DNA from: Nocardia ninae NBRC 108245
GTDB taxonomy: Bacteria; Actinomycetota; Actinomycetes; Mycobacteriales; Mycobacteriaceae
Direction: 5' to 3'
Length of the DNA stretch: 32,030 nucleotides
Assembly (NCBI RefSeq): GCF_007990755.1
Contig: NZ_BJXA01000090.1
Span: 1 to 32,030 of the forward strand
In this document: in pieces, positions 20,503 through 23,958 of the stretch
Numbering within the stretch: position 1 is the first letter of the stretch
Layout of the letters: each line of letters begins with the position of its first letter
Notes under the pieces: model-generated
Database searches by the model: none
Told to the model about the DNA's origin: nothing
What the model saw: the letters and a program-made list of their open reading frames with translations, nothing else
Made by a program: the position numbers and the translations under genes

Positions 20503-20531
20503 TTGCTATTGCGCTGGGATGTCCCTATCCT
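20503..20531 (+). promoter_or_regulatory. Promoter of the leucine-type leader
   Basis: TTGCTA (-35, 20503-20508), a 17-bp spacer and TATCCT (-10, 20526-20531) are followed 7 nt later by a GTG at 20539. This predicts transcription starting at or next to 20539, about 230 nt before the LeuA-domain gene. The segment from 20327 to 20502 shows no gene. Confidence 0.68.
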
Positions 20532-20619
20532 CAAGCGCGTGCCGAATCCCGCCGACCGCCACAGCGCAGCGCTCAACGTCGCAGACCGCGACAGCGCCGC
20601 GCTAATTCCGCTTACCGCG

Positions 20620-20673
20620 ATGGTGGCGCAGCGGCGACTTCTCCTCGTAGTAACCCGCCGTAGCGGGGTCTGA
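20620..20673 (+). CDS. Leucine-type attenuator leader peptide
   Basis: The small frame encodes MVAQRRLLLVVTRRSGV and stops at TGA 20671-20673. Three consecutive leucine codons followed by two valine codons (20638-20652) are the hallmark of leucine/branched-chain leader peptides: ribosome stalling at these codons reports shortage. The frame stays open upstream to a GTG at 20539, placed exactly for leaderless initiation, which would give a 44-residue peptide; which start is used is unclear because the ATG at 20620 lacks a Shine-Dalgarno site. The stop codon lies inside the loop of the downstream hairpin, so a ribosome reaching it would disrupt that structure. Confidence 0.75.
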   Translation: MVAQRRLLLVVTRRSGV

Positions 20674-20723
20674 TTCGGACCGGCCCCCTCGCTGCGGGCT
20701 GAATGACTTGTTAGTGCTGGTCC
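20654..20723 (+). promoter_or_regulatory. Leucine leader RNA: hairpin with predicted pseudoknot
   Basis: Main stem: 20658-20668 pairs with 20686-20697 (11 pairs, one G-U, one bulged U). Its loop (20669-20685) contains the leader stop codon and the segment GGACCGGC (20677-20684), which pairs over 8 positions (one G-U) with GCTGGTCC (20716-20723), forming an H-type pseudoknot. A competing small hairpin CCCGC-CGTA-GCGGG (20654-20667) uses the same 5' strand. The stalled ribosome on the Leu codons would leave the main stem free, while a terminating ribosome would melt it. No U-tract follows, so control may be translational. Confidence 0.7.
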
Positions 20724-20769
20724 CCTCTGTCAACTGAGCCACGACATTCCTCGGGAAGACCTACTTTCA

Positions 20770-21204
20770 ATGACAATCCTCACTCTCGATACCCACGCGT
20801 TCCATGCCGCCGCCCCCAAGGGTCTGCGCCACGAAAGTGCCGACCTCACCCCGGCGCAGTTCCACGACCGCTACTGCGAGCACACCGGGCCGATTCGGCT
20901 CGGTGACTGGTCGCCCGGGGGTAGCCGAAGCGCCGATTTCGCCGTGACGCTGGAGTTCACCGACCACCTGCGCACGGTGGTCGCCTCCGGCAGCCTCGTC
21001 GCGGCGATGACCTCGGCCCTCTACGAGGAGGGCTACCACGTCGAAATTCTGCAGTTCCACCAGCGTCGCACCGGCGAGGGCACCGCGACCTTCGTGCAGT
21101 GCGAGTGCAACGGCCGGCGCGGCTGGGGTGCCGCCCTGGCCGACGACGGCGCGGAATCGACGGTTCGCGCGATGATTGCCGGCGTCAATCTGCTCGGTAG
21201 CTGA
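20770..21204 (+). CDS. Stand-alone LeuA C-terminal (allosteric) domain protein
   Basis: The 144-residue product resembles only the C-terminal regulatory domain of 2-isopropylmalate synthase: GPIRLGDW, a VVASGSLVAAMTSALYEEGY segment, VEILQFHQR, then GTATFVQCECNGRRGWGAAL and STVRAMIAGVNLL. The catalytic TIM barrel is absent and nothing upstream encodes it. In LeuA this domain binds leucine for feedback inhibition. The protein could be a leucine sensor or a partner in trans for a LeuA elsewhere; this is inference. It is preceded by a leucine-type leader peptide and pseudoknot, which independently ties it to leucine. The ATG at 20770 has only a weak GGGAAG about 11 nt up, partly within a small hairpin (20747-20757). 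Confidence 0.8.
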   Translation: MTILTLDTHAFHAAAPKGLRHESADLTPAQFHDRYCEHTGPIRLGDWSPGGSRSADFAVTLEFTDHLRTVVASGSLVAAMTSALYEEGYHVEILQFHQRRTGEGTATFVQCECNGRRGWGAALADDGAESTVRAMIAGVNLLGS

Positions 21205-21262: not shown

Positions 21263-21637
21263 TTACTGCTCGGCGCCGGCCTGCTGCTCGGCGAGCTGCT
21301 TGCGCACCTCGTCCATGTCGAGCTCCTTCACCTGGGTGACCAGGTCTTCCAGCGCGGCGGCGGGCAGCGCGCCGGGCTGTGCGAACACCAGCACACCCTC
21401 CCGGAAGGCCATGATGGTCGGGATGGAGCGGATGTTGGCGGCGGCCGCGAGCCCCTGCTCGGACTCGGTGTCGACCTTGCCGTACACGACATCGGCGTGC
21501 TTCTCCGAAGAGGCCTCGAAGGTGGGTGCGAAGCTCTTGCACGGGCCGCACCACTCAGCCCAGAAATCGACGAGTACCACGTCGTTTCCGGTGACTACCT
21601 CGTCAAAATTCTGCTGGGTCAGCGTCTGGGTGGCCAT
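21263..21637 (-). CDS. trxA: Thioredoxin
   Basis: The 124-residue thioredoxin fold has the redox site VDFWAEWCGPCKSF (Cys30 and Cys33) and the cis-proline motif IRSIPTIMAFREG. It reduces protein disulfides in the cytoplasm with thioredoxin reductase. The C-terminal about 20 residues (KELDMDEVRKQLAEQQAGAEQ region) extend beyond the usual about 108-residue core as a charged helix. The start at 21637 is preceded on the minus strand by GAGAGGAC. It is divergent from the dehydrogenase at 21848. Confidence 0.94.
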   Translation of the reverse strand: MATQTLTQQNFDEVVTGNDVVLVDFWAEWCGPCKSFAPTFEASSEKHADVVYGKVDTESEQGLAAAANIRSIPTIMAFREGVLVFAQPGALPAAALEDLVTQVKELDMDEVRKQLAEQQAGAEQ

Positions 21638-21847
21638 GACGTCCTCTCGTATTCGGTATGCCGACTACAACGCCGGCCATTGCCTAAATCATCCACGGCC
21701 GATCGGCGCGCGCGGCACCGATCGCCGTCCCCTGGCCGTATACCCAGGCTTGTCGCCGGGAAATCCCGCCTGACCAGATGGTCTCCGGACGGTAGCGGTC
21801 GGTGGGTCGGTGCACCCGTTGGCGGAGCGCGGCGCGAGGATGATCTG

Positions 21848-22912
21848 GTGCGACTGGGACTGATAGACGGCGACGGCATCGGACCGGAAGTGGTGCAGGC
21901 CACCCGACGGGTCGTCGACGAGGCGGTGTCGGCCGCGGGTGCCGCGCCGATCGAATGGGTGCCGCTGCTGATGGGGCATCGGGCCATCGAAGAACACGGC
22001 GACCCGTTGCCGGAACAGACCTTGCAGGCGTTGGACGGCGTGGATGCCTGGATCCTCGGCCCGCACGACAATGCCTCCTACCCGGCGGAGCACCGCACCG
22101 CGGTCGCGCCGGGCGGCGCCATTCGCAAGCGTTTCGGGCTGTACGCCAACATCCGTCCGGCCCGCGCGTTCGCCGGTGTGCGTGCGGCGGCGCCGACGAT
22201 CGATCTGGTGATCGTCCGGGAGAACAGCGAGGGTTTCTACGCCGATCGCAATATGTTCGCCGGGTCGGGGGAGTTCCGGCCGACCGAGGACGTCGCCATG
22301 ATGGTCGGCGTGGTGACCAGGCAGGCCTGTGAGCGGATTGCGCACGAGGCCCTGCGGCTCGCCACGACGCGCCGCAAGCGACTGACCATTGTGCACAAGG
22401 CCAACGTGCTGCCGATGACGATGGGTCTGTTCCGCGACGTGTGCTATGAAATTGCCCACGCCTATCCCGGGGTCGAGGTCACCGACGAACACGTCGACGC
22501 GACGGCCGCCCACCTCGTCCGCGCGGCCGCCGACTACGACGTGCTGGTCACCGAGAACCTGTTCGGCGACATCCTCTCCGACCTGGCCGGCGAGCTGAGC
22601 GGGTCGCTCGGCCTGGCCGCTTCGCTCAACTGCTCGGCCATCCACGCCATGGCGCAGGCGGTGCACGGCGCGGCGCCGACCATCGCGGGGCGCAACCGCG
22701 CCAACCCCGCCGCTCTGCAATTGTCGGCGGCAATGCTGTTGCGCTGGTTGGGGACTCGCGACCGGCGCGGCGACCTCCAGCACGCCGCCGAACGCATCGA
22801 ACGGGGTGTCGCCGCCGCGTTCGAAGCGGGCATCGCCACGGCGGACCTGGGCGGACTGGCATCGACCAGCGAGTTCACCGAACAAGTTTGTGCTAGGGTC
22901 CACCGCCGGTAG
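21848..22912 (+). CDS. Isocitrate/isopropylmalate dehydrogenase family protein
   Basis: The 354-residue NAD(P)-dependent decarboxylating dehydrogenase of the beta family starts VRLGLIDGDGIGPEVVQATRRVV. Further motifs are RENSEGFYADRN, the catalytic Lys region VHKANVLPMTMGLF, and metal-binding aspartates in ENLFGDILSDLAGELSGSLGLAAS. The RENSEG signature resembles tartrate/isocitrate-type members more than LeuB (which has RELTGG), so substrate is uncertain among 3-isopropylmalate, isocitrate, tartrate or a related 2-hydroxy acid. The GTG at 21848 has GAGGA 7 nt upstream, and the protein begins exactly at the conserved first strand. Confidence 0.88.
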   Translation: MRLGLIDGDGIGPEVVQATRRVVDEAVSAAGAAPIEWVPLLMGHRAIEEHGDPLPEQTLQALDGVDAWILGPHDNASYPAEHRTAVAPGGAIRKRFGLYANIRPARAFAGVRAAAPTIDLVIVRENSEGFYADRNMFAGSGEFRPTEDVAMMVGVVTRQACERIAHEALRLATTRRKRLTIVHKANVLPMTMGLFRDVCYEIAHAYPGVEVTDEHVDATAAHLVRAAADYDVLVTENLFGDILSDLAGELSGSLGLAASLNCSAIHAMAQAVHGAAPTIAGRNRANPAALQLSAAMLLRWLGTRDRRGDLQHAAERIERGVAAAFEAGIATADLGGLASTSEFTEQVCARVHRR

Positions 22913-22943
22913 TCAGAGTGTGGTAGCCCGGAGTGTTCAGCAA

Positions 22944-23020
22944 GGAACGGATGAAAGTTCCGTTACTGTCCAGCACGAAGCGTCTCGGTCGCTTAGATTG
23001 CCAACGGGTGGTGACACCCG
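22944..23020 (+). other. Hairpins in the 5' region of the amino-acid transporter operon
   Basis: Two mutually exclusive small dyads, GGAAC...GTTCC (22944-22961) and AACGG...CCGTT (22946-22964), are followed by CGGGTG-GTGA-CACCCG (23005-23020), a perfect 6-bp stem. They lie in the 140-bp gap before the binding-protein gene and could be leader RNA structure or a weak terminator for the upstream gene. Confidence 0.35.
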
Positions 23021-23052
23021 GGTTTCTTGAATCCGAAATGTGGAGGGCTGCT

Positions 23053-23958
23053 GTGTCTGTTCGATCGGTTCTTGGCAGGCGCGCCCTGCAGGCGGTGTGC
23101 GTACTCGCCGGAGGCGCACTTGTCCTGACGGGCTGTAGTAACACCGAAGACTCCGGCCCCGCCGTGGAGAAGGTGAAGGTCGAGAAGAACGACTCGATCG
23201 CGGCGCAGCTCCCCGACAAGATCAAGCAGTCCGGCAAGCTCGTTGTCGGCGTGAACATTCCGTACCAGCCCAACGAGTACAAGGATCCCAGCGGCAAGAT
23301 CGTCGGCTACGACGTCGACCTGATGGATGCCGTCGCCGCCACCTTGGGTGTGAAGGCCGAGTACCTCGAGTCCGCCTTCGAGAAGATCATCCCCACCATT
23401 CAGGCAGGCACCTACGACGTCGGTATGTCGTCGATCACCGACACCAAGGAGCGCGAGCAGCAGGTCGACTTCACGACCTACTTCAACGTGCGCACCCAGT
23501 GGGCGCAGCAGAAGGGCAAGCCGGTCGACCCGGACAACGCCTGTGGCAAGCGGGTCGCCGTGCAGGCCACCACCATCCAGGACACCGACGATCTGCCGGC
23601 CCGAAGCAAGAAGTGCCAGGACGAAGGCAAGCCCGCGATCGACATCAAGTCTTTCGAGGAGCAGAGCGCCGCGACCAACGCGCTGATGCTCGGCCAGGTC
23701 GACGCCATGGCAGCCGACCTGCCGGTGACGGTGTACGCGATCCAGAAGAGCGAAGGCAAGATCGAGAAGACCAGCGCGGCGGCCTACGGTGCGGCGCTCT
23801 ACGGCTGGGCCGTGGCCAAGGGTTCGCCGCTGGCCGCCGTGCTGCAGCAGGCCGTGCAGAGCCTGGTCGACAACGGCAAGTACCTGGAGATCGCCAAGAA
23901 CTGGGGCGTCGAGGAAGGCGCCATCACCAAGTCGGTCATCAACGGCGCCGCGAGCTGA
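23053..23958 (+). CDS. Polar amino-acid ABC transporter substrate-binding lipoprotein
   Basis: The 301-residue lipoprotein has the lipobox LVLTGC (Cys28) and a family 3 solute-binding domain: LVVGVNIPYQPNEYKDPSGKIVGYDVDLMDAVAATLG, then AGTYDVGMSSITDTKEREQQVDFTTY and the C-terminal lobe. This family binds polar amino acids such as glutamate, glutamine or histidine. Starting at GTG 23053 gives a compact signal peptide with GGAGGG 5 nt upstream; longer frames from 22933 would add an unlikely extension. It is first of three genes (gap 4 nt to the permease). Confidence 0.9.
   Translation: MSVRSVLGRRALQAVCVLAGGALVLTGCSNTEDSGPAVEKVKVEKNDSIAAQLPDKIKQSGKLVVGVNIPYQPNEYKDPSGKIVGYDVDLMDAVAATLGVKAEYLESAFEKIIPTIQAGTYDVGMSSITDTKEREQQVDFTTYFNVRTQWAQQKGKPVDPDNACGKRVAVQATTIQDTDDLPARSKKCQDEGKPAIDIKSFEEQSAATNALMLGQVDAMAADLPVTVYAIQKSEGKIEKTSAAAYGAALYGWAVAKGSPLAAVLQQAVQSLVDNGKYLEIAKNWGVEEGAITKSVINGAAS

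Follow-up and report, generated by a model that had tools for sequence, protein, structure and literature searches.

A predicted valine- and leucine-responsive leader, related to the LEU element, precedes a standalone LeuA-type control domain in Nocardia and its family

What does a leader peptide sense when the gene behind it encodes only the control domain of LeuA, and by what means could it act on that gene? The question is raised by contig NZ_BJXA01000090.1 of Nocardia ninae NBRC 108245, part of a genome of 9.7 Mb, whose positions 1 to 32,030 were analyzed (a stretch of 32,030 nucleotides, hereafter the window). An earlier, sequence-only reading of this DNA had described a promoter, a leucine-type leader peptide and a pseudoknot in front of a LeuA domain without its enzyme. 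Comparison with related genomes suggests that the locus (Table 1) carries a known but unexplained RNA element in a new arrangement, ahead of a standalone LeuA control domain; among the literature matches listed, with subscription literature mostly outside the search, no title or abstract deals with such a domain under a LEU element. Folding of the single leader (191 nt) gave no signal (z +1.18, 180 of 200 shuffles being at least as stable), and the case therefore rests on comparison.

Table 1. Features of the leader and of the downstream gene, in window coordinates
Feature	Position	Strand	Basis
-35 box TTGCTA	20503..20508	+	Sequence
-10 box TATCCT	20526..20531	+	17 bases from -35; TAnnnT spacing
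Leader peptide, 44 codons plus stop	20539..20673	+	Probably leaderless, from GTG 20539
Sensor codons CTT CTC CTC GTA GTA	20638..20652	+	Codon conservation among relatives
Valine codons able to pair with 20710-20717	20647..20654	+	Predicted; weak here, clearer elsewhere
Stem 1, 5' arm	20658..20668	+	Within leader codons; comparative pairing
Stem 2 (pseudoknot), 5' arm GGACCGGC	20677..20684	+	Comparative pairing
Stem 1, 3' arm	20687..20697	+	5/11 pairs changed on both sides
Stem 2 (pseudoknot), 3' arm GCTGGTCC	20716..20723	+	2/8 pairs changed on both sides
Proposed sequestor, 5' side GGTCCCC	20719..20725	+	Overlaps stem 2 3' arm; predicted pairing
Possible ribosome site plus GACC, GGGAAGACC, proposed sequestor 3' side	20753..20761	+	GACC conservation
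Standalone LeuA-type control-domain gene, 144 aa	20770..21204	+	ATG 20770; weak Pfam match, family profile

A LeuA-type domain without its enzyme

The protein encoded from 20770 scores 20.3 bits against the Pfam LeuA_dimer model (PF08502), below the gathering cut-off of 24.9, and a phmmer search of the PDB with the single protein returned only unrelated Sqt1 chains (E 0.4-0.5), which were discarded. A profile of the family, compared to the PDB, recovers M. tuberculosis LeuA (1sr9) with a whole-sequence E of 1.7e-4, the best single stretch having an i-E of 0.089; the description of the gene as a LeuA control domain without the enzyme is upheld through this family profile, the match of the single protein being weak. 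The start of the protein resembles the region that precedes the control domain in LeuA (P--LR-E ... LTP-EF--RY versus PRRLQIEF ... VTPKEMWDVF--EYL, respectively). The GNGP motif of LeuA1 corresponds to G[SN]P in most of the aligned Nocardia proteins, GSL in the window, and GGP and NGP in two Rhodococcus proteins, and the loop that follows this site is about four residues shorter than in LeuA1.

The protein is present in all 58 genomes of the same genus that were searched; the named loci retrieved number 55 and comprise 53 from Nocardia and two from Rhodococcus, the nearest by LeuA-type protein being that of Nocardia suismassiliense (99%); the leader is present in all 56 loci when the window is included. 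At an E of 1e-12 the protein profile matches 245 of 301 genomes, in 26 of the 31 genera of the bacterial family, some of these matches being full-length LeuA (for example in genome G100). Among 296 genomes of the class (E 1e-10), the 10 matches outside the family all belong to LeuA itself, in long frames of 576-772 aa. In the genomes searched, the standalone control domain is confined to this bacterial family.

Some features of the surroundings deserve mention. Of the 55 fetched loci, 53 include a thioredoxin gene (window 21263-21637, other strand), which the two Rhodococcus loci do not, and 19 include a carbonic anhydrase-like gene. The stretch 22933-23958 of the window matches the C-terminal part (294-600) of a StpK7 kinase model, solute-binding domain included and kinase part absent, and the neighboring ORF 21689-22903 (minus strand) matched no family. 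One draft genome (G031) carries two copies of gene and leader, on contigs C244 and C209, and is perhaps a mixed assembly.

Leader start and sensor codons

The promoter with a 17-bp spacer can be read directly as proposed, and GTTGC of the -35 region shows conservation of 90% or more over 25 rows, the window being one of them. A small frame ending at 20673 is also borne out, but the sequence-only reading had omitted its likely start further upstream, at GTG 20539; the leader thus delimited reads VPNPADRHSAALNVADRDSAALIPLTAMVAQRRLLLVVTRRSGV and ends in TGA at 20671-20673. Of the 37 Nocardia leaders that were parsed, 36 show a TAnnnT box at a fixed distance of 7 nt ahead of an in-frame GTG; the exception (L043) is truncated at the edge of its contig. 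Among leaders of other genera the box is found 6-9 nt before an in-frame start in 31 of 40, six of the remainder having no box and three no stop by the rule applied. Out-of-frame starts in the same stretches had a box in 1 of 242 cases, a rough control, given that several in-frame start positions were tried per leader. The 7-nt spacing between box and GTG suggests, therefore, that the GTG of the leader is probably also the first codon of the transcript. The leaders of Nocardia span 39-68 residues and those of other genera 12-16, and an N-terminal extension (VPNPA...PLTAMVA) occurs in the Nocardia leaders only. The set of 37, used for the counts of GTA, start spacing, linker pairing and sequestor duplexes, was reached after five loci (L068, L074-L077) had been lost in parsing and 14 loci, either duplicates or the two Rhodococcus sequences, had been removed; the counts of Val-Val codons and of GACC (see below) use all 56 loci.

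At the C-terminal end, (L)VVxRRSG is kept in Nocardia, and (L)VVxRRSGV is the form taken up in the explanation favored below. Counted in codons back from the RR pair, Val-Val is found in 56 of 56 loci (55 named loci and the window), the first valine codon being GTA in all 56 and the second in 51, GTT otherwise; RR, Ser and the TGA stop are likewise present in 56 each. Leucine stands ahead of Val-Val in 53 of these 56. Two relatives, L181 (EVVVH) and L182 (QVVVH), have Val-Val-Val and a leader without any leucine. The leucines number three in the window and one or none in many relatives, and L063 and L073 retain Val-Val but have their leucine displaced. An in-frame GTA is present in all 77 parsed leaders of the standalone gene (40 from other genera, 37 from Nocardia), versus none in the 33-nt surroundings of the codon run in 37 leuA leaders, a count from which L142 and L151 (no LeuA) and L154 (partial match) were left out; where leuA leaders have Leu-Leu, the standalone-gene leaders of Nocardia have Val-Val. 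GTA is a rare codon, making up 2.8% of the 326 valine codons of high-GC3 genes in the window. The frame with Leu-Leu-Leu-Val-Val codons is thus real, but the label 'leucine-type' is not supported as it stands: the invariant sensor codon is, by comparison of the leaders, valine GTA, leucine being usual and dispensable. By way of rare codons, the leader peptide appears to monitor the supply of both valine and leucine.

GTA could also be kept for a structural reason. In other genera the GTA region pairs with the linker at -10.8 kcal/mol when both come from the same leader versus -8.0 for crossed pairs, 35 of 40 leaders beating their mean; in Nocardia the values are -5.9 and -5.5 kcal/mol, and 24 of 37 do better. 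Part of the GTA conservation may therefore be structural, owing to this pairing. A stronger version, in which GTA is retained for the linker and leucine, read from CTC/CTT, is all that the element senses, would draw on the same pairing and on the leucine that precedes Val-Val in nearly all loci, but it seems unlikely in view of the leaders that have lost or displaced leucine while keeping their valines, and of the weakness of linker pairing in Nocardia, where GTA is invariant all the same.

Sensor codons of this kind have counterparts in the ilvBNC attenuators, which likewise have Leu-Val codons in a branched-chain leader. Replacement of the valines with alanine in the IlvL leader of C. glutamicum (MTIIRLVVVTARRLP) abolishes the response to valine, and the 5' end of its transcript is a single base away from the start of the leader, in a near-leaderless manner that resembles the standalone-gene leader (excerpts of PMC11857589, citing Morbach 2000). 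In the M. tuberculosis ilvB1 leader, changing LVVI to AAAA abolishes induction (excerpt of PMC13236596). The own ilvB leader of N. ninae (L170) reads MRVNRNELLVIGRRVQR, with codons CTT CTC GTA ATC; a regulatory codon GUA in ilvB1, again according to that excerpt, and GTA in L170, are shared with the standalone-gene leader. By eye, L170 has a hairpin with a T-run after the leader, like a classical attenuator; as far as the excerpted account of ilvB1 goes, both end in a T-run terminator, whereas none was seen at the standalone-gene leader.

Pseudoknot and kinship with leuA leaders

The pairing of 20677-20684 with 20716-20723 as a pseudoknot, eight positions including one G-U, is confirmed by comparison, and so is the main stem, except that its 3' arm begins at 20687 and not at 20686. 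In 44 leaders of the standalone gene (41 distinct), 98.4% of the cells pair, versus 36-58% in slid controls, with one pair only showing changes on both sides. A broader set of 52 leaders (50 distinct), consisting of the window, 40 standalone-gene leaders of other genera, and 11 leuA leaders taken from the 38 available, gave 97.5% paired cells versus 40-54% when slid. In this set 39 cells changed on both sides, versus 12.3 in shuffles (reached by 0 of 500) and 0-7 in slid alignments; because the sequences are related, the shuffle figure should not be read as a probability, and the slid control retains that relatedness. Less extreme were the number of pairs with a both-side change (7 versus a shuffled mean of 4.6, 19 of 500) and the further pair types (18 versus 15.6, 35 of 500). 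Covariation in both stems, which the sequence-only reading had set as its check, is thus found: both helices covary in the alignment of the 50 distinct sequences.

The two 5' arms are located within the final codons of the leader and directly behind them. In 73 of the 77 parsed leaders the 5' arm of stem 2 ends 13-16 nt after the first base of the stop codon, so that a ribosome at the stop should cover this arm. The position of the stop bears on a different view, preferred for leuA in PMC1262725, according to which the pseudoknot is the binding site of a regulatory protein and the peptide incidental. The strong primary-sequence conservation of the pseudoknot would suit such a site, as would mutations in the leuA leader of S. 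coelicolor, which did not fit classical attenuation (Craster 1999, as retold in PMC1262725). A binding site would leave unexplained, on the other hand, why conservation extends to the spacing of the start, the in-frame GTA and the place of the stop, and this view is considered quite improbable here.

The kinship of the leader was addressed with R1, a covariance model built from 44 standalone-gene leaders only, with stem 1 as its sole structure; its matches were assigned by comparing their places with the loci of the protein search. Over 99 genomes, R1 found the standalone-gene leader in 57 of 58 same-genus genomes and in the window's own; one of the 57 (G013) has a leader interrupted by a contig end, and in the single genome missed (G024) the gene sits at a contig end. 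Of 40 more regions fetched, one holds the G024 gene; among the other 39, all R1-positive, 37 have a full or partial LeuA downstream, and the other two (L142, L151), with no LeuA nearby, were treated as chance. In the own genome R1 has two matches, the standalone gene and leuA; the latter leader (L087) is matched at an E of 9.7e-4 and reads MQRALLLSRRDGV. A search of the same genome at the DNA level found no second close copy of the leader (best other E 0.4). A reading as an ilvB-type leader, which has similar sensor codons, was rejected given the identity of these two matches. Beyond Nocardia, R1 matches upstream of 40 of 40 standalone relatives from 19 other genera (E at most 3e-9) and at 13 of 18 further loci (E 2e-8 or better), picked from genera uncovered so far or matching poorly, making 53 of 58 for the standalone relatives fetched outside Nocardia. 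The remainder of the 18 comprises four g30 loci with no R1 match and one g31 locus with a weak match (E 0.031); by eye, g30 leaders L225, L227 and L228 have a similar stem, a GGAC...GTCC pair and an in-frame GTA.

It should be mentioned that 21 Nocardia genomes have a further R1 site, before a second leuA; MGQGLLLLGRRGGV is an example of such a leader. This second LeuA (L126-L141, L143-L147) is approximately 45-56% identical to the own LeuA and has a LEU-type leader of its own; in the three Nocardia copies aligned (L128, L132, L133) its control domain is degenerate and GNGP is missing.

A LEU element upstream of actinobacterial leuA has been described as a leader peptide, a pseudoknot and a base stem, the latter formed by the leucine codon run with the ribosome site (Seliverstov et al. 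2005, PMC1262725). The statement in the sequence-only reading that such leaders had been proposed is therefore right; the genes named in that work are leuA and one B. longum transposase, with no standalone-domain gene, and the working mode of the element was left open. Since a model trained on standalone-gene leaders alone finds leuA leaders, in the same genomes, the leader before the standalone gene is, as judged from this homology, a relative of the 2005 LEU element. The two have in common a leader ending in RRxGV-stop, an H-type pseudoknot of two helices with matching stems, and detectable homology. In the window, CUUCUC and GGGAAG are complementary by eye and may be a counterpart of the base stem. 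The two differ in that a standalone control-domain gene stands here in place of leuA, which has its separate copy at L087, in the valine codons that replace Leu-Leu, and in a competing GACC. Rfam contains no match for the window leader at the gathering score, the best sub-threshold hit being aspS on the other strand (E 2.3), and none for six loci at an E of 0.1. Taken with the apparent N-terminal remnant in the protein, the shared leader suggests that the gene is a copy of leuA that has lost the catalytic barrel and kept the leader.

A competing pairing and the proposed switch

Between stem 2 and the gene, a GACC at 20758-20761 is complementary to GGUC within the 3' arm of stem 2. The 56 named loci yield 35 distinct regions, bounded by known gene starts and not by a pattern containing GGGAAGAC, and 34 of them have the motif in this interval, as do 31 of 38 distinct regions of other genera; in 500 shuffles the corresponding means are 9.2 and 6.1, and the maxima 18 and 14. 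Alternative orders of the same letters are also common (CGAC in 23 of 35, ACCG in 22 of 38). GACC placed right after the purine tract, as GAAGACC, is found in 33 of 35 named-locus regions and, for other genera, in 17 of 38; GACC lies ahead of the tract in several relatives (e.g. L178, L206, L180, L177, L176, L179). Duplexes between the GGUC and GACC sides beat their own shuffles in 34 of 37 Nocardia and 36 of 39 other-genus leaders, and are hardly better than crossed duplexes (-9.6 versus -8.7; Nocardia, -9.0 versus -8.3), with ribosome sites chosen by purine patterns, L173 dropped and a few sites mis-assigned (e.g. L179, L039, L042). The sequestor hairpin of the window alone does not rise above shuffles (z +0.70, 147 of 200). 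GGUC is nearly invariant, and covariation therefore cannot test this pairing.

No U-tract is present on reading the window sequence, in agreement with the earlier reading, and a classical transcription attenuator was set aside for this reason. The alternative pairing of GACC with GGUC suggests a translational switch; a translational mode is plausible and gains some support from this complementarity. Leaderless cysteine uORFs of mycobacteria are a related case, sharing a leaderless uORF and translational control and differing in the amino acid (Canestrari 2020, via an excerpt of PMC13236596). Alternatively, control could be exerted on transcription, stalling or completion in the leader exposing or hiding a Rho-loading region between pseudoknot and gene. 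The lack of a U-tract terminator, a pyrimidine-rich stretch past stem 2 in many relatives, and the suggestion of Rho for cys leaders (PMC1262725) would all be compatible with this route; it is nevertheless judged improbable, as other genera leave little room between stem 2 and the gene (29.0 nt on average) and the conserved GACC is better suited to translational control.

The analysis leans, with confidence a little above even, towards a valine- and leucine-responsive translational attenuator that derives from the leuA LEU element and controls the standalone LeuA-type control domain. We infer the following mechanism and direction. When Val-tRNA (and Leu-tRNA) is plentiful, the ribosome would reach the stop codon and cover both 5' arms; with the pseudoknot blocked, GGUC would pair with GACC and hide the ribosome site (OFF). 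Under a shortage of valine or leucine, the ribosome would stall on GTA/CTC approximately 24 nt earlier, stem 2 would form and the ribosome site would remain free (ON). The protein would probably be a separate control subunit acting on LeuA or a related branched-chain enzyme, which is the least certain step. IlvN and IlvH, the separate regulatory subunits of acetohydroxyacid synthase, are likewise control domains made as proteins of their own, and differ in that IlvN is an ACT-domain protein. Weighing against the attenuator are the window hairpin and the crossed duplexes, the near-invariance of GGUC, the low share of GAAGACC in other genera, the frequency of other orders of the GACC letters, the capacity of GTA to pair with the linker, the g30 loci without an R1 match and the g31 locus with a weak one, and the S. 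coelicolor leuA mutations.

A more specific and rather doubtful proposal is that the protein serves as a brake acting in trans: GTA codons would register a lack of valine and thereby switch on a standalone LeuA control subunit that damps LeuA and spares ketoisovalerate for valine, the brake being a leuA copy without catalytic barrel in which leader and control domain were kept. If this were true, RNA-based sensing of valine and protein-based sensing of leucine would together balance both branches. In M. abscessus, according to an excerpt of PMC11057210, deregulated LeuA raises leucine and lowers valine.

The swapped sensor codons, the probable leaderless start and the competitor ahead of the gene make the LEU element a directly testable switch, and a standalone LeuA-type control domain may, across the family, balance valine against leucine synthesis.
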